Positions 30,530 through 43,156 of a DNA stretch of 53,000 nucleotides are shown in pieces. The DNA is taken from NCBI RefSeq assembly GCF_001642955.1, contig NZ_LWSK01000031.1, positions 1 through 53,000 on the forward strand, read 5' to 3'. The stretch comes from Rubripirellula obstinata. GTDB taxonomy: Bacteria > Planctomycetota > Planctomycetia > Pirellulales > Pirellulaceae. Made by a program: the position numbers and the translations under genes. The notes beneath the pieces were generated by a model that did not search any database, was not told the origin of the DNA, and worked only from the letters and a program-made list of their open reading frames with translations. Numbering within the stretch: the stretch's first letter is position 1; the number at the start of each line of letters is the position of its first letter.

Positions 30530-31753
30530 TTACGCAGAAGTGTCCTGCGATCCGGCGTCTAGTGCTTCGGCCAGTGCGACGCACAATGGACCGTAGGTGG
30601 CTGTCGCTACTTGCAACTCCGCGACATTGAGGTGTTCTTGGTTGGTGTGCGCGAGGCGGTCATCGCCTGGGCCAAAGCCGACGACGGGAATGCCGGCTTT
30701 CATTAGGTGGCCGCCATCAGTCGCGAATTGCCAAACATCGCTTTGCTGATTACCAGTAGAACTTGTGATGACTTGCCCGGCCACTTCAGCCAGCCGGTCG
30801 GACGGTTGGGTGACGAACGGTGGGAAGATCGCGGCAAAATCGCGACTTGCACCGGTGTAAGTCTTGAACATTTTTCGTGTCACATTGACAACCGGCGGAT
30901 CTGAAAAGTCGGCGGTACATGACTGAGCCAAAGTGTCAATTGCTTGCTCGGCTAATTCCGGTGTTTCCGAAGGTGCATTCCGCCAATCAAGAAACAACGT
31001 CACTTCAGCGGGGATCACATTCGCACTGACTTGATCGGTCTTGTAAAGGGTTGGTGCAATCGTCGATCGACCAAGCACGGGATCATCGGCAAGCTCGATT
31101 TCGCCAAGCCGCGATAGAAATTCAGCCGCGGCAAAATGTGGATTGATGCCCAGGCTTGGTGCGCTAGCGTGTGCCGAGCGTCCAGAAAACTTCACCTGAA
31201 TTTCGATGCGACCACGATGGCCCAGTCGCAGTTGATTGCTGCTCGGTTCGCCAACAATCCCAGCATCGGCCGTGGTTTCGGTGACCAGGAACTGACTGCC
31301 TAAACCGCCAATCTCTTCCATGACCGCGACCGTCATCAAGACATCGCCGATGGGTTTTTTACCGAGTTGTTTAAACTGCGCGGCACCATAAATCATCGCA
31401 GCGACCGGCCCCTTCATGTCCACTGAACCGCGTCCCCATAGATTTCCATCGACGATTTCACCACCGTAGGCGGCATGTGGCCAACCGTCGTCGGGACCGG
31501 GATCCACCACATCCATGTGCCCATTCAACATGATCGTTGGCCCGCCGTCGCCGTTGATTTTTCCGACCAGGTTGCCGACTTGATCCGTCCAGACTTCGTC
31601 ATAGCCAAGCGATTTCATTTCAAGCAGAATCAACTTCGCAACCTCACCCTCACACCCCGAAAGGCTTGGCGAGCGAACGATCGACTGAGTAAACGAGACG
31701 AGGCGGTCCGAACGCTGCTTCGTCGCCTCTTTTGACATTTCAAGTGTGATCAT
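30530..31753 (-). CDS. M20-family metallohydrolase (ArgE/DapE/YgeY-like)
   Basis: A 407-residue di-zinc amidohydrolase. Zinc-site motifs are present: NGHMDVV (His79, Asp81), GRGSVDMKG (Asp112), MEEIGG (Glu146/147) and a late HTNQEHL. The dimerisation domain has HRGRIEIQVKFSGRSAHASAP. The frame is open upstream to 31897, but that part is only translated repeat DNA, so I start at ATG 31753; ATG 31738 is also possible. It is the last gene of the minus-strand purine-degradation set. It resembles YgeY, found with purine genes in other bacteria, more than peptidases. A role in ureidoglycolate or another late ureido compound is possible but unproven. Confidence 0.75.
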   Translation of the reverse strand: MITLEMSKEATKQRSDRLVSFTQSIVRSPSLSGCEGEVAKLILLEMKSLGYDEVWTDQVGNLVGKINGDGGPTIMLNGHMDVVDPGPDDGWPHAAYGGEIVDGNLWGRGSVDMKGPVAAMIYGAAQFKQLGKKPIGDVLMTVAVMEEIGGLGSQFLVTETTADAGIVGEPSSNQLRLGHRGRIEIQVKFSGRSAHASAPSLGINPHFAAAEFLSRLGEIELADDPVLGRSTIAPTLYKTDQVSANVIPAEVTLFLDWRNAPSETPELAEQAIDTLAQSCTADFSDPPVVNVTRKMFKTYTGASRDFAAIFPPFVTQPSDRLAEVAGQVITSSTGNQQSDVWQFATDGGHLMKAGIPVVGFGPGDDRLAHTNQEHLNVAELQVATATYGPLCVALAEALDAGSQDTSA

Positions 31754-31780
31754 AAAACTGCAATCTATGAAAATGGGTTG

Positions 31781-31806
31781 TTTGACCGCGTGGGCATCGC
31801 CCCGCG
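31781..31806. repeat. Partial family C repeat
   Basis: GCGTGGGCATCGCCCCGCGC matches the inner arm of the palindrome at 7411-7440. Only one arm is present. It lies just upstream of the M20 hydrolase. Confidence 0.6.
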
Positions 31807-31846
31807 CTCTCGGTTGCCAAACTTGCTGGGCGTCGGCCAGGATCGT

Positions 31847-31935
31847 GTAGGCCGGAACAAGCTTAGCGCAGTTCCGGCAATTTGCTTGGTACTGCATTGG
31901 ATTGCCGGAACTGCGCTACGCTTGTTCCGGCCTAC
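31847..31935. repeat. Family B palindromic repeat (hairpin)
   Basis: Arms 31847-31881 and 31901-31935 (about 35 bp, one or two mismatches) start GTAGGCCGGAACAAGC and close GCTTGTTCCGGCCTAC around a 19-nt loop. It lies between the KARI-like gene and the M20 hydrolase. With the family C fragment it accounts for most of this roughly 290-bp gap. Confidence 0.82.
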
Positions 31936-32042: not shown

Positions 32043-33026
32043 TCAACCTTCGCCAAATTTCTCTCGCCACTCGGCACCAGTCTGTTCCATCAAAGACTCC
32101 GCGCCGGTGCGACGCATACGATGCAACCGCGGCATCCCCAGTTCCCATTCCTGCATCCACCTCGCTGCAAACTCACCTCTTTCGGTTTCATCAAAGATGT
32201 TTTGCACCTCGTCATAGTTGACCACTCGTGGCCCGTTGGTTCGGACCGCGAATTCGCAGGTTCGGCTGGACCGGTTCGAGATGTATTCTTCGATACCGAT
32301 TTCGTCCATCACGTCAACGACCGTCCGCAATGAACGAATGGCTTTGGCATAAGCAAAGTGCGGCGGGTAGCCTCCGGCGACCATCGTGTCGAACGTTGCC
32401 TTCATCAGATGAATCACGCCGCCGTACAAAACTTGCTCTTCAAAATTATCGCCTTCAGTTTCCTGTTGAAAGGTCACGCCAACCGAACCAACTCGCAAGC
32501 TGCCGACTGACTTCGCCAACGCTAAAACCATGTCAAGGGCGTTACCGGTCACGTCTTGTTCCACTGAAATCGCGCCGTAAATCCCTGACCCGTCAAGGTA
32601 CTTTTGACGCACGGTGTGCCCGGGACCATTGGGAACGAACAACACAACGTTGACGTTCTTCGGTGGCTTGATCGCGCCATAAAGCACATTGAAACCGTGA
32701 CAGAACGCGAGCGTGCTGTTGGGTTTTAAATTGTCGTGAATCGAGTCGTAATAGATCGCGGGTTGCGGCGGATCGGCAAGCAAGATGTAAACCAGATCGG
32801 CGGCCGCTGTCGCCTCGGCGATCGAAACAGGCGTAAACCCATCGTCAATGGCCGCTTGCCACGATGGCCGAGTCTCGGACCCAATTCCGATCACAAGATC
32901 TACACCGCTATCACGCATGCACAACGCCTGCGGACGGCCTTGAATGCCGTAACCAATGATTGCAACTTTCTTGTTCTTCAAAACGTCAAGACTGACAGCA
33001 TCGTCTAAAAAAATCTGATTTTCCAT
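32043..33026 (-). CDS. Ketol-acid-reductoisomerase-like oxidoreductase lacking key catalytic residues
   Basis: A 327-residue protein aligned by eye with class I KARI (IlvC) over its full length. The NAD(P)-binding site GYGIQG (25-30), HGFN (110-113), GPGHTVR (134-140) and the metal residues Asp193 and Glu197 in ETEGDNFEEQ are kept. The usual Lys of APKGPGH is Asn133 (VPNGPGH). The two glutamates of the FECLHELKL segment are Lys228 and Ser232 in AYAKAIRSLRTVV. The isomerase reaction of branched-chain amino-acid synthesis is therefore unlikely. No other ilv gene is near; the gene sits among urate and allantoin genes, 56 bp after HIU hydrolase. It may keep only 2-oxoacid/2-hydroxyacid redox chemistry, for example on ureidoglycolate or glyoxylate (inference). 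Confidence 0.8.
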   Translation of the reverse strand: MENQIFLDDAVSLDVLKNKKVAIIGYGIQGRPQALCMRDSGVDLVIGIGSETRPSWQAAIDDGFTPVSIAEATAAADLVYILLADPPQPAIYYDSIHDNLKPNSTLAFCHGFNVLYGAIKPPKNVNVVLFVPNGPGHTVRQKYLDGSGIYGAISVEQDVTGNALDMVLALAKSVGSLRVGSVGVTFQQETEGDNFEEQVLYGGVIHLMKATFDTMVAGGYPPHFAYAKAIRSLRTVVDVMDEIGIEEYISNRSSRTCEFAVRTNGPRVVNYDEVQNIFDETERGEFAARWMQEWELGMPRLHRMRRTGAESLMEQTGAEWREKFGEG

Positions 33027-33082: not shown

Positions 33083-33424
33083 TCAGCTACCGCGGTACGT
33101 CGAATAGCCGAACGGATTCAGCAAGAGAGGAACGTGGTAATGCTGGGCCGGATCAAGCACTGTGAATTCAATCCGAATGCTCGGGTAAAACGCAGTTGCT
33201 TGCTGAGACTTGAAGTATTCAGCCACCGCAAAACTGATTCGATAATCCCCCGCCACCACGCCATCTGCAGCCAAGTCACCAACGCGTCCGTCATCGTTGG
33301 TAATTCCTTGACCGACATCAATCCAATGCGACGATGGCGCATCCATTCGTTCCAACGTTATCGCAATCCCTACGCCGGGCTTACCTTGCGAAGTATCTAG
33401 CACGTGTGATGTGATTCCAGTCAT
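33083..33424 (-). CDS. hiuH: 5-hydroxyisourate hydrolase (transthyretin-like)
   Basis: It hydrolyses the uricase product 5-hydroxyisourate to OHCU. The 113-residue length is standard and there is no signal peptide. HVLDTSQGKPG opens the protein, HYHVPLLLNPFGYSTYRGS closes it, and the terminal YRGS is the diagnostic difference from transthyretin. Active-site histidines (in HVLDT and HYHV) and Arg are visible. Its ATG overlaps the stop of the allantoinase-UraD gene by 4 bp, so the enzymes for two consecutive steps are translationally coupled. Confidence 0.95.
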   Translation of the reverse strand: MTGITSHVLDTSQGKPGVGIAITLERMDAPSSHWIDVGQGITNDDGRVGDLAADGVVAGDYRISFAVAEYFKSQQATAFYPSIRIEFTVLDPAQHYHVPLLLNPFGYSTYRGS

Positions 33425-35292
33425 ACGATCAATTTCCCCAATCGAAGCTCAGTGATTTTCAGTTGTTCAGCGGCTGCATTCTTCAGTTCTTGATCACGCG
33501 ATAATACCAAACGTTCTTCGAGAATTTGAAGCATCTGACGCGATGTCTTCCCCGTGGCGCAAACGATAAAGATGAATCCAAACTTGTCGAAGTACTCGTC
33601 ATTGGCAGCGGATAACCGTTTTAGCACTTCTTCATCAGCATCCTTGACGCCGGCTTGTTCGTTTTCGGCGATGGACTTGGTATTGGCAAATTTGGCACGC
33701 AGCGAATCGATGTCGCCGATCCTCGGGTGTGCCGAAAACGCTTCCAGCAGGTCGGGCTCACGCAAACCTTCCCAGGCTGTCTTCGCACGCAGCAGCAAGT
33801 CACTGTCGCTGGTAAACTTGCCACCGCCAATCATCCGGTTAACCCATTCCCGCGAACCACAGCATGTTTCAAGCGTCTGAAACAATTCTTGCTCTTCCAA
33901 CGAATTGAGAAACCCAGAAAGAGGTTGCGGTGATTCGCGTCGAACAAATTTTCCGATTCGATCGCCGATCAAAGATCCGTCTTCATAAATCAATGTCCCA
34001 CGAAGATAAGTGTGTTTTACGATGCCCTGTAAATTGCATCCTTCGTACGCCGTGACATCACCACGATGAAAAAGCTTTGCTCCTGAAACTTGGAACGTTG
34101 CCGAAGGATCCCAAATCACGAAGTCTGCATCGTAACCGGCTTCGATTCGTCCTTTGCTGGACTGTAAACCAAAAATCTGTGCAGGTCGCCAAGACAATCG
34201 CTCGGCAAGCAATACGGGTGACCAGCCACGATCCAACGCGATCGTCCACATCACACTCTGTGTCAATTGCAGACTCGCGATACCGCCCCAGGCTTTTGAA
34301 AAGTCACCTGAATCGATCGCCTTCAACTCGGATGGGCAAGGCGAGTGATCCGAACCGACGGTTTCGATAATCCCTGCCTCGACCGCGTCTCGTAAGGCGT
34401 CTCGGTTTGCCCGATCTCGGATCGGTGGCGCGCATTTGAAACGTGTTTCGCCGTCCTGGATTTGGGCAGAATCGAAATACAAATAATGCGGACACGTTTC
34501 GACGGTGATCGGCAGTCCTTCCAATTTCGCATCAACGATCACTGGCAACGCCTTGGCCGTCGCCAGGTGAACGATATGAATCGGGGTTTGGTACTCGCGA
34601 CACAGATCGATCAACAACTCGATCGCAGCGAGCTCGAATTCGGGCGGCCGAGAATTCGCGTAATCGTGATAGGCTTGTGGATGATCGATTTGGATTTGCT
34701 TGCCGACGATCTCAGCATGAGCAAGCAGCGGCACTCCGGTGGACTGCAACTCGCGCAGCCCTTCTCGCAAATCGGACTCGCTAGACGCTGGGAATTCATC
34801 CAAGCCCGAATCGCATAGAAAAGCCTTGACTCCCATCACTCCTTCCTCCACGAGCGAAGCGATTTCGTGATGGTTCCCAGGAACAAGACCGGCATAAAAC
34901 CCCACGTCAACGGCGCACTTCTCCGATGCAGCGGCCTGTTTTTTCTTCAACGCTGCTTTCGTCGTCGTTACCGGGCTACTGTTTAGCGGCATGTCGATGA
35001 TGGTGGTGACTCCACCGGCCGCCGCGGCAGCAGTTGCCGTTTCAAAACCTTCCCATTTCGTTCGGCCTGGTTCATTGACATGAACGTGTGCATCGATGAT
35101 TCCCGGTGAAACGACAAGGTCACCCACGTTAATGACCTGCAATCCCGCAGGAACTTCCGCGGGATCCACGACGGCCCGAATCACTTCACCCTCAACGATA
35201 ATTGCAGCGTTGATTTCTCCCGATGCCGTTACCACTCGCGTGCTACAGATTGCAAAGACAGGTTTCGATACCGCCGGTTGTTGTTCACCCAT
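33421..35292 (-). CDS. Allantoinase-OHCU decarboxylase fusion (AllB-UraD)
   Basis: A 623-residue bifunctional protein. Residues about 1-455 are a cyclic amidohydrolase: DAHVHVNEPGR (His69, His71), GVKAFLCDSG (Lys156, the carboxylated lysine), HAEIVG, HIVHLATA and GSDHSPC (Asp315). This fits allantoinase, which opens allantoin to allantoate. Residues about 460-623 are OHCU decarboxylase: AFSAHPRIGD (His522) and FGFIFIVCATGKTSRQML. UraD makes the S-allantoin that AllB consumes, so the fusion joins successive steps in reverse order. I start at ATG 35292; 92 in-frame upstream codons are the uricase gene read in another frame. It lies 5 bp after the uricase stop. Confidence 0.92.
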   Translation of the reverse strand: MGEQQPAVSKPVFAICSTRVVTASGEINAAIIVEGEVIRAVVDPAEVPAGLQVINVGDLVVSPGIIDAHVHVNEPGRTKWEGFETATAAAAAGGVTTIIDMPLNSSPVTTTKAALKKKQAAASEKCAVDVGFYAGLVPGNHHEIASLVEEGVMGVKAFLCDSGLDEFPASSESDLREGLRELQSTGVPLLAHAEIVGKQIQIDHPQAYHDYANSRPPEFELAAIELLIDLCREYQTPIHIVHLATAKALPVIVDAKLEGLPITVETCPHYLYFDSAQIQDGETRFKCAPPIRDRANRDALRDAVEAGIIETVGSDHSPCPSELKAIDSGDFSKAWGGIASLQLTQSVMWTIALDRGWSPVLLAERLSWRPAQIFGLQSSKGRIEAGYDADFVIWDPSATFQVSGAKLFHRGDVTAYEGCNLQGIVKHTYLRGTLIYEDGSLIGDRIGKFVRRESPQPLSGFLNSLEEQELFQTLETCCGSREWVNRMIGGGKFTSDSDLLLRAKTAWEGLREPDLLEAFSAHPRIGDIDSLRAKFANTKSIAENEQAGVKDADEEVLKRLSAANDEYFDKFGFIFIVCATGKTSRQMLQILEERLVLSRDQELKNAAAEQLKITELRLGKLIV

Positions 35293-35297
35293 GCGGC

Positions 35298-36146
35298 TCA
35301 ACCATCCCTGCGAATCGTCGCTTCGATTACGCCAAAGGGTTCGGGCGTCGGGACAAAGATGTCGTTGTGGTTCTGCAATCCAAGCTTGGCGATGTCGGCC
35401 GGAATGTGGTGCTGATTTGGCATGTTGAGCGTAATTTCGCTGATCGCTGGGCAAGAATCCAAGACGGCTTCCGCCATTTCGTGCAATGTTCGTTGGACCG
35501 AGGGGCTGTAACGGTGCGCGAAAATTTCCAGCAATTTCGATCGCACCAAAATTCGAATGGCGGTCCAATCTTCAGACACATTCCCGCAATCCCATTCGGC
35601 GGTGATCGTCGTTGCAAAGATCCGATCTTTCGTTTCGGCAAGCGTTGTCAGTTGATCTTTCGAGTAGCCTTCAAAACCAGACTCGGTTGTCTTCAGCACC
35701 TTCAATCCCTTCAGCCCGGAATGCATCGTGATTGAATCCGCGGAAGCACTGACGCAACACGTATTCTGTTCGCTTCCACCGCCAGTAAACGCATGTCCGT
35801 GCGGCTGACCATCGCAATCAATCCGAGTCCACAATTGTTCGGACACCGACACGGTTGCCGATTCGACCTGGTCATAAGTTTGACAGAAATGAACTGCCAA
35901 GTTTTTTGCAAAGTCCTCAATTGAATCAACGCCATGCATCCGAGCGATCGCATAGACGGTGTTCTTCATCGTATCCGTTGGCACAACCTTCGAATTGTCA
36001 TCGCTCGTGTAGGCGTCGTCGAACTTACCCTCCAGCGATATCTCTGCAGAGAGTTGAATAAAATCATGACGGTCTTCCTTGCGTGAAATATACGACAGAC
36101 AGACGTGTGATTTTCCGTAGGAATGTTTGCTAAGAGTAACAGCCAT
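35298..36146 (-). CDS. pucL: Urate oxidase (uricase)
   Basis: This cofactor-free enzyme oxidises urate to 5-hydroxyisourate with O2. The 282 residues hold two T-fold halves. Conserved text is YGKSHVCLSYI, VVPTDTMKNTVYAIA (the catalytic Thr with a nearby Lys), HGHAFTGGG, GLKGLKVLKTTESGFEGY, LNMPNQHHIPADI and the DIFVPTPEPFGVIEATI ending. It lies between AllE and the AllB-UraD fusion on the same strand. Confidence 0.95.
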   Translation of the reverse strand: MAVTLSKHSYGKSHVCLSYISRKEDRHDFIQLSAEISLEGKFDDAYTSDDNSKVVPTDTMKNTVYAIARMHGVDSIEDFAKNLAVHFCQTYDQVESATVSVSEQLWTRIDCDGQPHGHAFTGGGSEQNTCCVSASADSITMHSGLKGLKVLKTTESGFEGYSKDQLTTLAETKDRIFATTITAEWDCGNVSEDWTAIRILVRSKLLEIFAHRYSPSVQRTLHEMAEAVLDSCPAISEITLNMPNQHHIPADIAKLGLQNHNDIFVPTPEPFGVIEATIRRDG

Positions 36147-36212: not shown

Positions 36213-36971
36213 TTAAGTCTCGCTCAATCGCTCGCGATGAATGTCTTTGTAGTACAGATAGCTGGCTGGTTTCTTGCCCATCGCAACGAACCATTGAGGG
36301 CAGAAGGATCCCATCCAGATCACATCGCCTTTGGCGACCGGGAAATGATCGGCCCCAAGCCGATAAATACCCTGGCCATCCAGCATGATTAACCCATGCT
36401 CCATGACGTGAATTTCGACTTGCGGCAACGTCGCGCCGGGTTGGTAAGTAAACAGATTGACCGCCATGTCATATTCAGGACTGATCGGCAAAAACGTTTT
36501 CAACACCGCGTCCGGGTCGCCCATGAACGCTTCGCCGGAGGTTTCATTTGCGTTGCCAACCACCATCGCTGGTGTTTCAAAATCGGGATGCGGCACATAC
36601 CGTTTGTCAAACATCACCAAGGTCGCGGACTGATCACAAACAATGCGATCTTGGGTGTCCGCAGGCAAAAATACAAAACAGCCCTCGGTAAGTTCACGCT
36701 TCGAATCCGAACTCAGCCGAACCGAACCTTGTTGAACGTAGACAAACCGCTCGATTCCCGGACCAGCAGATTCGCTTCGACCGCCGGCCGTCATGAACAC
36801 CGTGAACTGGGAAAAACGAGCTCCCATTTCAGGCGAAATGTGATGGACCGCTGTCGTGTTCTGCCAACCAACCAGCGGAGAATTGACGTGCGTGTCAGGC
36901 GTGATCAGCGCGTAGTTGTGGGTTACACGACTGCGAGTGTTGCCAAAAAGTGGGGGATCGGACGCTTCCAT
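36213..36971 (-). CDS. allE: (S)-ureidoglycine aminohydrolase (bicupin)
   Basis: It releases ammonia from (S)-ureidoglycine, giving (S)-ureidoglycolate. Two cupin domains fill 252 residues. The C-terminal cupin has the Mn ligands in VEIHVMEHG (Glu186, His188, His192) and Gln226 in CPQWF; the N-terminal cupin has degenerate ligands, as is normal for this family. SRVTHNYALITPDTHVNSP is a typical opening. Together with AllC it makes ureidoglycolate, for which no classical next enzyme is present. Confidence 0.93.
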   Translation of the reverse strand: MEASDPPLFGNTRSRVTHNYALITPDTHVNSPLVGWQNTTAVHHISPEMGARFSQFTVFMTAGGRSESAGPGIERFVYVQQGSVRLSSDSKRELTEGCFVFLPADTQDRIVCDQSATLVMFDKRYVPHPDFETPAMVVGNANETSGEAFMGDPDAVLKTFLPISPEYDMAVNLFTYQPGATLPQVEIHVMEHGLIMLDGQGIYRLGADHFPVAKGDVIWMGSFCPQWFVAMGKKPASYLYYKDIHRERLSET

Positions 36972-37025: not shown

Positions 37026-38315
37026 TTAAGCAGTACTCGAAGCACCAACCGAACAACGATGGCCGACTCTTAGAATCGTTTTCACCATCACGTTGATTGC
37101 GACTTCGATATCGTCTAGCGAAACGGTCTCGTCGGGATGATGACTGATCCCTTGATGACAACGAATGAACAAAAGACAGGTTGCCGTGAGCTTGGTCAAG
37201 ATCATCGCATCGTGACCAGCACCGCTGACCATTGATTTCGCTTCTGAAACAACTTCGACCACTGATTGCGAAAGCTCACTCGTTAACTCTTGATCCATTT
37301 GAACCGCTGGCGTGTGTTCAACGTTGTCGATACGCCCAGCCAATTGCCGATGACCCGCGATCTCATCAACCAAGCGTTGGATTTGATCAAACGCAGCTTC
37401 CCGAACTGGATCAACTTCGTGTCGAAGATCTAGACGCAATTCCGCCGTCCCGGCAATCACGTTGGACAGTCCAGGCTTGGCATCGATGCAACCAATGGTG
37501 GCGAATAAGCCATCAGTGTTTTGTCCGAGTGATTCGATTTTCAGAATCAATTCAGCCGCCGCGGCGAGCGCGTCCCGGCGACGATCGTGCGGCACTGTCC
37601 CGGCATGTCCGGCAACTCCGTCAAAAACAATGCGAGCTCGAGTTTGCCCGGCGATCGTCGTCACCACACCGACCGGCAAGGAAGCCTCTTCCAAGACGAC
37701 GGCCTGTTCGATGTGAGCCTCCATGAAGCCAACCAAACGGCAAGCTTCGTAACTTGCCGACGCAAGATTGCCACAACCGCAACCGAACGAATCAAGCGCC
37801 GAGCGAACACTGCTGCCATTGGCATCGACACGATCCAGTTCTGATTCAGGCAACGACCCTGTGATTCCGCGTGAACCGATGAAGGGGAAACGATATCGCA
37901 CCCCTTCTTCTTCAGAAAACCCAATCACTTGCAAACTAAACGGAAGCTCAATTTTGGCCTCATTGAAAACCTCCGCTACGGCCAGCCCCAGCAGGACTCC
38001 CAACACGCCGTCGAATCGGCCAGCATTGATCACAGTGTCCAAATGCGACCCGATCAGAAACACTTCGTCGCTCGCGGTCGCCGGGCTCTTGCCGATCAGA
38101 TTACCAACGGCATCGACCTCGCACTCTAACTTTGCGGCGGTCATCCAAGCTGAAAGCTCCGCATGAAGTCGCTCCATAGCGGGGGAGCAAAACGTCCGCG
38201 TGATTCGGCCTTCTTCATCAGAAAATTCCGCCAAACGATCGCAACGGTTCGCGGTTCGTTTCGCAGCGTCTCTTAAAAGTTGCGAATCAATGTCACATGG
38301 AGTTAGATTAGCCAT
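37026..38315 (-). CDS. allC: Allantoate amidohydrolase (M20 family)
   Basis: It hydrolyses allantoate to ureidoglycine, CO2 and ammonia. The 429-residue protein has metal motifs GSHLDTV (His91, Asp93), GRFDGVLGVLLGL (Asp102), GFSEEEG, EAHIEQA, and a final HHPDE. The lid domain GVAGHAGTVPHDRRRDALAA is characteristic of the allantoate/N-carbamoyl-amino-acid hydrolase group. ATG 38315 (MANLTP) is preferred over 38390. N-carbamoyl amino-acid hydrolase is the alternative, but the cluster argues for AllC. It is divergent from xdhA. Confidence 0.88.
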   Translation of the reverse strand: MANLTPCDIDSQLLRDAAKRTANRCDRLAEFSDEEGRITRTFCSPAMERLHAELSAWMTAAKLECEVDAVGNLIGKSPATASDEVFLIGSHLDTVINAGRFDGVLGVLLGLAVAEVFNEAKIELPFSLQVIGFSEEEGVRYRFPFIGSRGITGSLPESELDRVDANGSSVRSALDSFGCGCGNLASASYEACRLVGFMEAHIEQAVVLEEASLPVGVVTTIAGQTRARIVFDGVAGHAGTVPHDRRRDALAAAAELILKIESLGQNTDGLFATIGCIDAKPGLSNVIAGTAELRLDLRHEVDPVREAAFDQIQRLVDEIAGHRQLAGRIDNVEHTPAVQMDQELTSELSQSVVEVVSEAKSMVSGAGHDAMILTKLTATCLLFIRCHQGISHHPDETVSLDDIEVAINVMVKTILRVGHRCSVGASSTA

Positions 38316-38351
38316 CGTTGGATTGTATCGGACACTCCAAAAAGTTGCTCG

Positions 38352-38400
38352 TTGATGTTCGCAGTTCGCTTGCACTATACCTATAATCAAAGTGCGGTTC
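38352..38400. promoter_or_regulatory. Putative xdhA promoter and operator between allC and xdhA
   Basis: A perfect TATAAT (38382-38387) faces xdhA. It sits inside an inverted repeat GCACT (38372-38376) / AGTGC (38391-38395), placed so that a bound protein would block the promoter. No good -35 box is at the usual distance; TTGATG at 38352 is 24 bp away. The 148-bp divergent region could serve both the xdh and all operons. Confidence 0.4.
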
Positions 38401-38463
38401 AGTGAGTCAGGCGATCACGAACGACGCTGTTACATTCTGATTGAATCCAACGAAGGTCCTGCG

Positions 38464-39963
38464 ATGCGGAATTACTCCTTAATCTTCATCAACGGACGCA
38501 AGCACGTTGTTAAGGGACGCGACGCCTTTCTGACTTTGTCAGAGTTTCTTCGCAAAACGCTGAAGCTAGCCGGAACCAAAATTGTTTGCTCCGAAGGTGA
38601 TTGTGGATCCTGCTCTGTTTTGTGCGGGAAAAACAGCGGGGAAAATAACGGTCAAGAGGAACCCATTCGGTATCAGGCGATTGATTCTTGCATTCGATTT
38701 GTGTTCCAACTAGACTGCTGCCACATCATTACTGTGGAAGGACTGGCTGAGGAACCAGATGGCAAGAAACTGACGAAAGAACCCTGCGCCGACCAGTTGT
38801 CCAATCTTCAAAAATCCATGGTCGATTGCCACGGTTCACAGTGCGGGTTCTGTACGCCCGGTTTCGTAGTCGCGATGACCGCCGTGCTAGAACAGAATCC
38901 CGATCCGTCGATCGAAGATTGGCGACACGAATTGACGGGCAATCTTTGTCGTTGCACCGGATACGCGCCCATCATCGATGCGGCTATGCAGGCGTCCACA
39001 TTGCCATCGCCGTCGTTGAACCAGCGATATCCCGTCACCAAAATGGCGGAAGCGGTTCGACTTGTCCAGGAAGACACGATTCAGATTCAAGCACAAGACT
39101 TTGAAAACGTCATGCAGACCGTTGCCTGCCCCCGAACGATCGAAGAGGCGGTGGAGTTCTTGGCCGAACATCCCGACGCAAAAATTGTCGCAGGCGGCAC
39201 CGACGTTGGCGTCCAATTCAACAAAGGATCACAGCAGCCGCAATTTTGGCTGGATCTAAATCGAGTCGAATCGTTGACAAAACTCTCCGTCACCGACCAA
39301 GCAATCCAGGCGGGCGCATGCACGACTTGGACGGATCTTGAAAACACCGTTGAAACCGTTGCACCGGAATTTCACAAGATCATTTCAGTATTCGGTTCGC
39401 CCCAGGTGCGTCATGTGGGAACCATCGGCGGCAACATCATCAATGCGTCGCCGATTGCCGATTCACTGCCTCTGTATTTTGTCTGCGATGCTGAATTGGA
39501 ACTGACCAGCAAATCGGGCACGCGAGTCGTCAACATCAATGACTTTTACCTTGGCTACAAACAGCTTGACCTTCACCCAGGTGAATTGCTGACGGGCGTC
39601 AACATCCCGCTGCCCGGACACGATACCGATTTGCGTTTGTACAAAGTATCGCGTCGCCGAGACATGGACATTTCAACGTTTACCGCCGCCATTTGCATCG
39701 AACGAAGTGGAGACACCATTGCGGAAGCTAGAATCGCTTATGGAGCAGTCGGCCCGGTCGTTCTGCGTTTGAAACAAACTGAAACGTTTCTGCAAGGACG
39801 AACTTTTGATCTGGAAACGATGCAAGCCGCTGGCGAAATTGCGGTCAAGGAAATCACGCCCATCTCAGATGTTCGCGGCGGCCAAGATTTTCGTCTGCAA
39901 CTCGCCAAAAATGTCTTGGTCAAGTTCTATCACGAAATGATGACAGAAGGAGCGATCGCATGA
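38464..39963 (+). CDS. xdhA: Xanthine dehydrogenase small subunit (2Fe-2S and FAD)
   Basis: The electron-transfer subunit of a molybdenum hydroxylase, 499 residues. The ferredoxin-like cluster is bound by Cys42, 47, 50 and 54 in CSEGDCGSCSVLC. The second cluster uses QCGFC (Cys127, Cys130) and LCRC (Cys162, Cys164). The FAD domain begins near residue 215, with IVAGGTDVGVQF and VRHVGTIGGNIINASPIADS. ATG 38464 (MRNYSLIFING) is chosen over the in-frame 38392 start, which would overlap the promoter. It overlaps xdhB by 4 bp. The purine neighbours identify it as XDH rather than a CO or aldehyde dehydrogenase. Confidence 0.93.
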   Translation: MRNYSLIFINGRKHVVKGRDAFLTLSEFLRKTLKLAGTKIVCSEGDCGSCSVLCGKNSGENNGQEEPIRYQAIDSCIRFVFQLDCCHIITVEGLAEEPDGKKLTKEPCADQLSNLQKSMVDCHGSQCGFCTPGFVVAMTAVLEQNPDPSIEDWRHELTGNLCRCTGYAPIIDAAMQASTLPSPSLNQRYPVTKMAEAVRLVQEDTIQIQAQDFENVMQTVACPRTIEEAVEFLAEHPDAKIVAGGTDVGVQFNKGSQQPQFWLDLNRVESLTKLSVTDQAIQAGACTTWTDLENTVETVAPEFHKIISVFGSPQVRHVGTIGGNIINASPIADSLPLYFVCDAELELTSKSGTRVVNINDFYLGYKQLDLHPGELLTGVNIPLPGHDTDLRLYKVSRRRDMDISTFTAAICIERSGDTIAEARIAYGAVGPVVLRLKQTETFLQGRTFDLETMQAAGEIAVKEITPISDVRGGQDFRLQLAKNVLVKFYHEMMTEGAIA

Positions 39964-42338
39964 ACAAGCTTTTTGCGTTAAGGAAAGATGGAACTGCGAT
40001 TGATCCGCGAGAAAAGGGCTCCGTCGGAAGAACGATTCCTCACGATTCGGCAATCGGTCATGTGGCCGGTTGCGCACCGTTCATTGACGACTTGCCGCGC
40101 CGCGAAGACGAACTATTCGTCGGCTTTGTGGGCAGCCCGATCGCCAGCGGAACGATCGAAGCCATCCACATCGAAGCTGCCGAAAAAGTCGATGGCGTCG
40201 TGTGCGTGCTGACTGCCAAGGACGTCGGTGAACACAACCAATTCGGCCCGATCATTTGTGACGAACCGTTTTTGGCTGATTCGGAAGTGATCTATGTCGG
40301 TCAACCGATTGTTCTGATCGCTGCCGAAACTTCGGATGCGTTGAAGCGAGCTTTGAAGCTGGTCGAGATCGAAACGGTGGCCGCGAAACCAGTGCTGACG
40401 ATCAAAGAAGCTGTCGAACAAGAATCCCACATTGGCCCGCGTCGCCAAATCCGTCGCGGCGACCCTGATCAGGCCATCGCAAACGCGACTCATCAACTCT
40501 CGGGTCAGTTCGAGATCGGTGGGCAAGAACAGTTTTATCTCGAATCACAAGTCGCTGCTTCCTATCCCGCGGAACAGGGCCAGTTGGTCGTTCATTCATC
40601 CACCCAAAACACGACCGAAATCCAGGCGGTCGTTGCGGAAGTGCTGGGCATTTCCATGCACCAAGTGGTGTGTGTGTGCAAACGAATGGGCGGAGCGTTT
40701 GGTGGCAAAGAAACTCAGGCCGTGATCCCTGCGTTGATGGTCGCTTTGGTGACCCAGGTGACCGGTCGAGCCGCCCGCATTGCGTATGACAAAGACACCG
40801 ACATGTGTGTCACAGGCAAACGTCATGCCTACCTTTGCAAATGGAGCGTGGGCTTTGATTCGGACGGAATAATCAGTGGCCTGAAATGCAATTACTTCTC
40901 CGACGGTGGTGCCACGGCCGACTTGTCCACGTCGATCATGGAACGAACGCTACTGCACACCGACAACGCGTACTACATCGAAAATTTTGAAGCAAGCGGC
41001 CAGGTCTGTCGCACCAATAAACCACCCAACACAGCCTTCCGAGGCTTTGGCGGTCCCCAGGGTGTTGCGGCAACCGAGAATATCATCGAACGAATCGCTG
41101 AACACCTAAAAATCGATGCCTTCAATGTTCGCGTTCAAAATCTGTACGGAATTGCGGATCGAAACGTCACTCCGTACGGCCAGTATTTCAGCAGCAACCA
41201 CCTGCCCGAAATTTTGAATACGCTGGCAAGCACATCGGATTACGAGAATCGCGTCGCACAGATACGAACCCGCAATCAAGAAGATCCACTTTTCTTGCGG
41301 GGCATTTCGATGACGCCGGTGAAGTTTGGAATTTCGTTTACGTCAAAGTTTTTGAATCAGGCCAATGCATTGGTCAACGTTTACACCGACGGCACTGTGC
41401 AAGTTTCCACCGGCGGAACCGAAATGGGACAGGGCCTGAACACCAAAATTCGGCAAATTGTTGCGGACGAATTCGGGATCGATTACACCAACGTCATCGT
41501 GATGCCGACATCAACGGAAAAGAACAATAACACGTCGCCCACCGCTGCATCCGCCGGAACCGATCTCAACGGCGCTGCCGCCGCCAACGCATGTGCCAAG
41601 ATCAAAAAACGAATGGCCGATTTCGCTGCGACTCTGTTTGCGTCCGCAGAAGAAGGCTTGATCCCGTCGCCTCAGCACATCGTTTTCGAGAACGGATGTG
41701 TGCGGGATAGTCGTCAGCCAACAGAAACGATTGCGTTCGCCGATCTAGCGAACCGAGCCCGTTTGGAACGCATCGATATCGGTTCGCGAGGATTCTACAA
41801 AACGCCTGGCGTTGACTTCAATCGTGACACTGGACGTGGAAACCCGTTTTTGTATTTCACTCAAGGTGCCGCGGTGGCTGAGGTCAAGATCGATCGTTTT
41901 ACGGGCGACCTAGCGGTGACACGAGTCGATTTGTTGATGGACATTGGCAAATCGATCAACCCCGGTGTCGATATGGGACAGATCACTGGCGGATTTATTC
42001 AGGGGATGGGTTGGGTGACGGCGGAGTGCTTGGTGTACGACGAACGGGGAGCCTTGCTTTCGCATTCACCGACGACCTACAAGATTCCTGCGATCACCGA
42101 TGTCCCGCCCGATTTCCGCTGCGAGATGTTTCCCAACAACGACAACCTTCATACCATTCGGCGAAGCAAAGCCGTTGGTGAGCCACCGCTGTTGCTAGGC
42201 GTTGCCGCGTGGGCCGCCGTTAAGAATGCGTTGTCTTACTTGCCTCGCACGACCGATCCACAGCTTTGCCTGCCCGCCACGGGCGAAGAAATCCTGCGTT
42301 GCATCAGTCAACAAACAGCCGGCGTATCAAGCACGTGA
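39960..42338 (+). CDS. xdhB: Xanthine dehydrogenase large subunit (molybdopterin)
   Basis: The catalytic subunit that hydroxylates hypoxanthine and xanthine to urate, 792 residues. Molybdopterin-binding text is GGAFGGKE (244-251), the TAFRGFGGPQG loop with the substrate Arg, and GGTEMGQGLNTK. The catalytic glutamate is in VGEPPLLLG (Glu741). Length and motif order match XdhB. It overlaps xdhA at its start (ATGA) and xdhC at its end (GTGA), giving a tight xdhABC operon. Confidence 0.95.
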   Translation: MNKLFALRKDGTAIDPREKGSVGRTIPHDSAIGHVAGCAPFIDDLPRREDELFVGFVGSPIASGTIEAIHIEAAEKVDGVVCVLTAKDVGEHNQFGPIICDEPFLADSEVIYVGQPIVLIAAETSDALKRALKLVEIETVAAKPVLTIKEAVEQESHIGPRRQIRRGDPDQAIANATHQLSGQFEIGGQEQFYLESQVAASYPAEQGQLVVHSSTQNTTEIQAVVAEVLGISMHQVVCVCKRMGGAFGGKETQAVIPALMVALVTQVTGRAARIAYDKDTDMCVTGKRHAYLCKWSVGFDSDGIISGLKCNYFSDGGATADLSTSIMERTLLHTDNAYYIENFEASGQVCRTNKPPNTAFRGFGGPQGVAATENIIERIAEHLKIDAFNVRVQNLYGIADRNVTPYGQYFSSNHLPEILNTLASTSDYENRVAQIRTRNQEDPLFLRGISMTPVKFGISFTSKFLNQANALVNVYTDGTVQVSTGGTEMGQGLNTKIRQIVADEFGIDYTNVIVMPTSTEKNNNTSPTAASAGTDLNGAAAANACAKIKKRMADFAATLFASAEEGLIPSPQHIVFENGCVRDSRQPTETIAFADLANRARLERIDIGSRGFYKTPGVDFNRDTGRGNPFLYFTQGAAVAEVKIDRFTGDLAVTRVDLLMDIGKSINPGVDMGQITGGFIQGMGWVTAECLVYDERGALLSHSPTTYKIPAITDVPPDFRCEMFPNNDNLHTIRRSKAVGEPPLLLGVAAWAAVKNALSYLPRTTDPQLCLPATGEEILRCISQQTAGVSST

Positions 42339-43156
42339 CACATCCAGTTTCGTATATCGAAGCGTTATCCAATCTTGCGCAAACGAGTGTGCCTTTTGTT
42401 TCCGTCACGATGGTGGAAGCAACCGGCAGCACCCCGCAAGACGCGGGTTCAAAAATGCTGGTTGATGCCTCGGGCCGACTGCATGGGACCGTCGGTGGCG
42501 GCAAGGTTGAACACCGGGCGATTGAACATGCGAAAGAGTTGCTTTTAGATCTTTCGCGATCGCGGGAACTTGTCGATTGGAACTTACAACGCGACATCGG
42601 CATGACTTGCGGCGGCTTGGTCAAGCTGTTTTTCGAGGTCTATTGCCGCGACCAGTGGGACGTTGTCGTCTTCGGAGCTGGACATGTCGCCGGAGCATTG
42701 GTGAAAGTTCTCTGCACACTCGATTGCCACGTCACTTGCATTGATACGCGTCGCGAGTGGATCGATTCGATTGACGATCACCCCAGACTAACCAAGCTTT
42801 GCGTCGATGACTTGTCGGCGGAAGCTGCGAAAAGAAAGTCCGGTGACTACGTGATTTGCATGACGATGGGTCATGCTACCGATCGCCCGGTACTTTCGAC
42901 GCTCTTCAAAAACGGTATCAAACCAGCTTACCTGGGCGTGATCGGCAGCAAGTCCAAACGAGGCGTTCTGGAACGAGAGTTACGATCCGAGGGCATCGAT
43001 CCAGAAACTGCTTCAAGCTTTCGATGCCCAATCGGATTACCAATCGGTTCGAACCAACCGGCGGAAATTGCGATCAGCATCGCGGCTCAGTTGTTGCAGC
43101 ATCGCGACGAGACCAAAAAAAATCCTTGCATCGCCGGTCAAGAAACTGCGACGTAA
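42335..43156 (+). CDS. xdhC: XdhC, molybdenum cofactor insertion/sulfuration factor
   Basis: An accessory protein that binds molybdenum cofactor and hands the sulfurated form to XDH. The N-terminal XdhC domain has ATGSTPQDAGSKML and GTVGGGKVEHRAI. The C-terminal Rossmann domain has VVVFGAGHVAGALVKVL and GVIGSKSKRG. The GTG at 42335 overlapping the xdhB stop gives 273 residues; a longer ATG start at 42266 would lie entirely within xdhB. Confidence 0.92.
   Translation: MTHPVSYIEALSNLAQTSVPFVSVTMVEATGSTPQDAGSKMLVDASGRLHGTVGGGKVEHRAIEHAKELLLDLSRSRELVDWNLQRDIGMTCGGLVKLFFEVYCRDQWDVVVFGAGHVAGALVKVLCTLDCHVTCIDTRREWIDSIDDHPRLTKLCVDDLSAEAAKRKSGDYVICMTMGHATDRPVLSTLFKNGIKPAYLGVIGSKSKRGVLERELRSEGIDPETASSFRCPIGLPIGSNQPAEIAISIAAQLLQHRDETKKNPCIAGQETAT

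Follow-up and report, generated by a model that had tools for sequence, protein, structure and literature searches.

A KARI-like gene in a urate/allantoin operon

The window, the whole stretch of 53,000 nucleotides analysed from contig NZ_LWSK01000031.1 of Rubripirellula obstinata, carries a urate/allantoin operon of seven minus-strand genes in the order AllC-like, AllE, uricase, allantoinase/OHCU decarboxylase fusion, HIU hydrolase, KARI-like and M20 hydrolase. The sixth gene encodes a protein related to class I ketol-acid reductoisomerase (KARI, IlvC). Genes for xanthine dehydrogenase lie in the opposite orientation to this operon. The features are as follows.

37026..38390, minus strand: AllC-like allantoate amidohydrolase (TIGR01879, 325.4 bits, cut-off 204; NF006775, 473.9 bits, just under the cut-off of 479)
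36213..36971, minus strand: AllE, (S)-ureidoglycine aminohydrolase, which makes (S)-ureidoglycolate (TIGR03214, 280.7 bits, cut-off 200)
35298..36146, minus strand: uricase (TIGR03383, 313.3 bits)
33421..35568, minus strand: allantoinase (AllB)-OHCU decarboxylase fusion, one ORF (TIGR03178, 512.8 bits; TIGR03180, 151.2 bits)
33083..33424, minus strand: hydroxyisourate hydrolase (TIGR02962, 130.2 bits)
32043..33026, minus strand: KARI-like protein, 327 aa, candidate (S)-ureidoglycolate dehydrogenase (KARI_N and KARI_C domains, residues, clade and context)
30530..31897, minus strand: M20 (ArgE/DapE/YgeY-like) hydrolase, last gene of the operon (NF009555, 270.8 bits, and TIGR03526, 216.9 bits, both below cut-off)
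38392..39963, plus strand: xanthine dehydrogenase small subunit (TIGR02963, 448 bits, just under the cut-off of 467)
39960..42338, plus strand: xanthine dehydrogenase molybdopterin subunit (TIGR02965, 915.8 bits)
42266..43156, plus strand: probable XdhC-like accessory protein (named by reading the ORF; a homologue, 76%, lies beside XdhB in genome G142)

The fusion ORF probably has its true start near position 35313, because its upstream part overlaps the uricase gene, and the M20 ORF probably starts near 31735. Two further genomes, G142 of the same genus and G067 of a different genus in the family, have the operon in the same order, and the KARI-like protein is the best conserved of the operon products, at 90 and 88%, respectively, whereas the main matches of the other products lie at 52-80%. 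In the comparison with G142 it also has the lowest dN of seven operon proteins compared (0.074 vs 0.147-0.295), dS being saturated.

Substitutions in the active site

The coordinates given in the initial annotation are correct, with the gene lying on the minus strand, and, as stated there, the protein aligns with class I KARI over its full length. A Pfam scan returned KARI domains only (KARI_N, 190.8 bits; KARI_C, 96.1 bits) and no homology to Ldh_2 (PF02615, the AllD family), and identity to class I KARIs is approximately 40% over residues 4-324. A monomer model (pLDDT 84.6, pTM 0.76) matches KARI structures with a TM-score of ~0.8 and an rmsd of ~8 Å, a comparison that bears on the fold and not on the dimer site. 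The protein passes the ilvC equivalog TIGR00465 (278.6, cut-off 226.15) and scores 320.5 with NF004017, below the cut-off of 336.

Alignment also bore out the residues that had been read from the single sequence. GYGIQG, H110, D193 and E197 are retained, and N133, K228 and S232 occupy the positions of Lys, Glu and Glu of IlvC. All three substitutions, including the change of the PKGPGH-motif Lys to Asn, are invariant in the 36 full-length members of the clade described below, which also keep H110, S254, D193 and E197; conservation of the last two is partly selected, as both lie within the patterns used in the genome scan (EGDNFEE/MDEIGIE), and none of the three substituted positions lies inside them. 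The corresponding residues in canonical KARIs are Lys (52/52), Glu (52/52) and Glu (51/52), and the single exception, L097 (K/E/S), has two KARI_C matches, so that this column may not be comparable. No homologue in the same gene context keeps the Lys and both Glu residues (0/36), an arrangement that had been named as contrary to a loss of KARI activity. The dinucleotide-binding glycines G25, G27 and G30 are intact in all 36 members; the loop columns that would bear on a preference for NAD or NADP vary. With thresholds of 95% in the clade and 85% in 50 canonical rows, 17 positions are fixed differently, namely N133, K228, S232 and 14 others. Those near the active site include 131, 192, 194, 196, 201, 227, 231 and 234, and residues 246 and 324 of the clade have no counterpart in the 50 canonical rows.

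According to PMC5940873 and PMC8615647, D191/E195 ligate Mg(I) and D191/E227'/E231' ligate Mg(II) in class I KARI structures, and the alkyl migration is Mg-dependent. These residues correspond to D193/E197 and K228/S232 of the KARI-like protein. Of the residues that make up the two-Mg site (Asp, Glu and two Glu from the partner subunit), D193 and E197 are present, and the partner glutamates are replaced by K228 and S232 (36/36). The initial annotation had placed the loss at the binding of both Mg ions. The partner ligands of site II are indeed gone, but the site I pair is kept, and only site II appears to be affected: judged from the alignment, it is without its two partner ligands and has gained a positive charge, and D193/E197 remain.

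Distribution and phylogeny

A scan of 84,980 species genomes, selected on the two motifs given above, yielded 35 loci in about seven phyla, with titles naming Planctomycetota, Chloroflexi, Spirochaetes, Verrucomicrobia, Clostridia/Bacillota, Dethiosulfovibrio and Desulfovibrio/Deltaproteobacteria. In a few loci gene calling chose shadow ORFs over the KARI gene. The clade is sparse within these groups. A search of the family matched 192 of 199 genomes and, among the matches listed, only the window's genome (G000), G142 and G067 reached at least 88% identity, the others lying at 36-43%. Only G000 stood out among 392 genomes of the phylum, where identity was 40-42% in the five further matches at E <= 1e-72, and the class of G587 has a clade member in 2 of 298 genomes.

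The prediction that homologues beside allE or uricase genes would form one clade with the same Asn/Lys/Ser substitutions held. All 36 clade rows fall on one side of a branch (support 100/99) that separates them from 50 canonical rows in an unrooted tree; among the canonical rows, L094 has a very long branch. The fragment L076 was excluded from residue counts and tree, and L092 (truncated) and L097 from the tree and the fixed-position comparison; eleven rows belong to neither residue-count group, namely nine clade duplicates (L098-L106) and the second KARIs L095 (K/E/E) and L096 (K/E/S). The window's protein groups with Chloroflexi proteins and one Spirochaete protein (12 rows, 100/96), apart from the other Planctomycetota proteins. 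This grouping, together with the rare but broad occurrence of the clade, suggests horizontal transfer of the KARI-like gene. Three other ideas about its history were rejected. A plasmid-borne paralogue conflicts with a plasmid tblastn search, in which the 117 records matched all lay under 60% identity and the eight listed bore the label ilvC. Joint travel of the M20 gene with the KARI gene from Chloroflexi conflicts with the two M20 groups, which fall into separate clusters under stricter thresholds. A decaying pseudo-IlvC conflicts with the lowest dN among the seven operon genes compared and with substitutions fixed across phyla.

A second, canonical KARI in carrier genomes

A separate canonical ilvC, which the initial annotation had proposed to look for, is present on another contig of the window's genome, directly preceded by an ORF that, from its reading, is presumably ilvN (AHAS small subunit). 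At least one further KARI_C match over cut-off was found in 22/22 clade genomes tested, the match in G585 being weak (66.9 bits). Among the 21 second KARIs that were read (L077-L097), 19 are K/E/E and two are K/E/S, with K133 and E228 in all 21. In 7 of these 22 genomes an AHAS-like match lies on the same contig as the second KARI; in none does one lie on the contig of the clade member. L096 and L097 (G592 and G599, titled Spirochaetaceae and Spirochaetales) are class II-like KARI frames with two KARI_C matches and K/E/S.

AllE as the constant partner

Whole-genome searches drew on 22 of the 35 scan loci. All 25 clade genomes tested for AllE have a match above cut-off, located on the contig of the KARI gene in 24; its background frequency is 9/392 in the phylum and 12/298 in the class of G587. 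At the level of loci, AllE was seen in 32 of 36, and by distance it ends no more than 300 bases upstream of the KARI gene in 26 of 36, an adjacency that holds also where no uricase is seen nearby. Of the four loci without AllE, L044, L053 and L076 begin near the gene, and the genome of L063 has AllE on another contig. L052, which lies outside the adjacency count, has a gap of 1661 bases with one 489-aa ORF between AllE and KARI, unlike its relatives. The co-occurrence and adjacency of AllE across clade loci led us to reject a chance neighbourhood with purine genes.

The urate/allantoin operon that the initial annotation described is real, and its order is kept in the two further genomes, but uricase is present at only 14/36 loci; none was seen within the stretch at loci titled Desulfovibrio, Dethiosulfovibrio, Clostridia, Brevefilum and Anaerolineae, presumed anaerobes. 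Since AllE occurs in 25/25 genomes tested, the constant partner of the KARI-like gene is allE, the maker of (S)-ureidoglycolate, and not uricase. In two loci glycine cleavage genes lie nearby: the P protein gene directly follows KARI at L063, and a GcvPA match lies downstream of KARI at L049, among ORFs resembling further gcv genes.

Carbamoyltransferases are found in 9/36 KARI loci (OTC-like in seven, ATC-like in six) and carbamate kinase in six, as expected for a route from oxalurate through carbamoyl phosphate to ATP. The oxalurate branch of E. coli uses such enzymes, and AllFGH performs the carbamoyl transfer (PMC11326118, in part). No carbamoyltransferase was seen in the other 27/36 loci, and AllG, a subunit of the E. 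coli enzyme, occurs in 5/22 clade genomes and 0/3 Pirellulaceae genomes; both observations count against a dehydrogenase. In the Pirellulaceae loci L038, L039/L043, L042, L044 and L076, the KARI gene is followed by an M20 hydrolase. That of the window may act on oxalurate or ureidoglycolate, and is a candidate for the step after oxalurate; its use of ureidoglycolate would weigh against a dehydrogenase.

Replacement of AllD in AllE clusters

Nine AllE loci without a clade member were examined in the phylum. AllD is present in five of these, with 52-61% identity to the E. coli protein; an ATC-like gene accompanies it in three and a carbamate kinase in two. Three others have a second AllC-like hydrolase, by inference ureidoglycolate amidohydrolase-like, and one contig ends early. 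The clade locus L047 has the order AllE-ATC-KARI, and L151 and L154 have AllE-ATC-AllD. AllD and AllA were found in 0/36 KARI loci and, genome-wide, neither AllA nor Gcl above cut-off was found in any of the 25 clade genomes. The window's genome has no AllD family protein, AllA, or Gcl above cut-off, and no Ldh_2 protein was found in it or in G142. Some Ldh_2 protein does occur in 12/25 clade genomes, which counts somewhat against a replacement, as an AllD may exist there; the best per genome has 26-40% identity to AllD of E. coli. Within the AllE cluster, KARI occupies AllD's position.

In the class of G587, 12 AllE loci from ten genomes are without the clade; a second-type AllC-like gene lies by AllE in three and an AllC-like match in one, and neither AllD nor KARI was found in the stretch (0/12). 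One locus of this class, L200 (genome G765), has genes for an AllE-like cupin, OTC-like and ATC-like proteins and a ThiO-like FAD dehydrogenase, and no KARI. The ThiO-like flavoprotein might perform the oxidation there; the AllE/OTC/ATC module does not always need KARI. An ATC-like paralogue is present in the AllE/AllD clusters L151, L154 and L158 (Planctomycetota), accompanied by FdrA/AllG in L151 and L154.

Proposed reaction and alternatives

The product of KARI is (2R)-2,3-dihydroxyisovalerate. When hydroxyl, carboxylate, side chain and hydrogen are mapped on one geometry, this compound and (S)-ureidoglycolate have the same arrangement despite their R and S descriptors, because side chain and carboxylate exchange their CIP priorities. 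Oxalurate is N-carbamoyl-oxamate, an N-substituted oxamate, and N-hydroxyoxamates bind and inhibit KARIs, as indicated by titles (PDB 6bul; a reference in PMC8615647). By this analogy, the KARI fold looks suited to the ureidoglycolate/oxalurate pair. Oxidation of (S)-ureidoglycolate to oxalurate is the AllD reaction (PMC3527362, in part). The initial annotation had offered this oxidation and glyoxylate handling side by side; the former is favoured here, because KARI stands in AllD's place, neither AllA nor Gcl above cut-off accompanies it in the clade genomes, and the stereochemistry would fit.

The substrate, direction and metal use that we infer are as follows. AllE would supply (S)-ureidoglycolate to the KARI-like enzyme, which would bind it as KARI binds 2,3-dihydroxyisovalerate, transfer the C2 hydride to nicotinamide, and release oxalurate (2-oxo-2-ureidoacetate). 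The reductase half of KARI alone would thus be kept, running in reverse, and the isomerase half would have been lost, as both partner glutamates of Mg site II are gone. The ammonium group of the invariant Lys228' would sit at the former Mg(II) place and hold the substrate carboxylate, and the retained D193 and E197 may coordinate one metal or serve as base. The protein is probably a member of a separate KARI-fold subfamily working as an NAD(P)+-dependent (S)-ureidoglycolate dehydrogenase, an AllD analogue without homology to AllD. With somewhat less assurance, we favour the wider reading of a widespread, unnamed family in about seven phyla, which passes as IlvC and in which a KARI fold became a one-step (S)-ureidoglycolate dehydrogenase with a partner-subunit lysine in place of the second Mg2+ and its ligands, providing an AllD-independent oxalurate branch. 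None of the texts seen in searches of the open-licence PMC library describes such an enzyme, and a search there for KARI mutagenesis gave no usable paper.

Two alternatives keep the protein near the same metabolic node. After another enzyme, in the window perhaps the M20 hydrolase, has split ureidoglycolate, the KARI-like protein could reduce a downstream 2-oxo acid such as glyoxylate, hydroxypyruvate or tartronate semialdehyde. KARIs are described as promiscuous reductases (PMC4353338), and the second M20 hydrolase that follows KARI in Pirellulaceae operons would supply such an enzyme. The genome-wide lack of AllA and of Gcl above cut-off speaks against this, as does KARI's standing where AllD would; moreover, AllE and KARI are retained in loci outside the Pirellulaceae even though these, within limited contigs, show no more than a single AllC or M20 hydrolase and nothing else known to act on ureidoglycolate. 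We regard this alternative as unlikely, and reject its variant of a tartronate-semialdehyde reductase on the Gcl result (0/25 genomes). It is just as improbable that the protein acts on ureidoglycine, before or beside AllE, or in a redox-neutral manner on ureidoglycolate, as a lyase or epimerase with bound nicotinamide. Close pairing with AllE suits any enzyme at that node, and many loci are missing an oxalurate sink, but ureidoglycine is already handled by the AllE kept in every genome tested, and the redox chemistry of KARI is hydride transfer at a C2 carbonyl or hydroxyl.

That the protein is still a ketol-acid reductoisomerase, placed in a purine operon by chance, seems very improbable. 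Its TIGR00465 score would allow it, but NF004017 places it below cut-off, all 36 members are without the motif Lys and the Mg(II) partner ligands, and the second KARI, found in its own genome and in all 22 clade genomes tested, retains K133 and E228 wherever read.

Relation to known systems

The clade shares with IlvC its fold, length, Rossmann motif, H110, D193/E197, Ser254 and approximately 40% identity. It differs in having N133, K228' and S232' for Lys, Glu and Glu, in forming a separate clade, in lying beside allE, and in coexisting with another KARI. With AllD, an L-sulfolactate dehydrogenase-like (Ldh_2) (S)-ureidoglycolate dehydrogenase, it would have in common the place in the AllE cluster and the proposed reaction (PMC3527362, in part), but the two belong to unrelated protein families, and the window's genome has no Ldh_2 protein. 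A parallel is BurG of malleicyprol biosynthesis, a KARI relative recruited to other chemistry that gives a 2-hydroxy acid (PMC12790350, in part). Its structure (7pco) is matched by the KARI-like protein more distantly than the best KARI chain (140 vs 300 bits), and its substrate and pathway are different. IlvC paralogues of Streptomyces have likewise diversified or specialised by gene context; the S. viridifaciens paralogue favours valine precursors (PMC4353338, in part), whereas the clade is without the isomerase residues.

If the proposed reaction is correct, the purine operons of these bacteria would no longer lack an enzyme for ureidoglycolate, and a natural KARI with its reductase half split from its isomerase half would offer a direct test of the role of the second metal. 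The automatic annotation as IlvC would then be wrong; because the protein clears the curated ilvC equivalog TIGR00465, annotation errors are likely in carriers, together with misreadings of their BCAA and purine pathways. KARI also serves as a target for herbicides and drugs, and its oxamate inhibitors resemble the proposed product.
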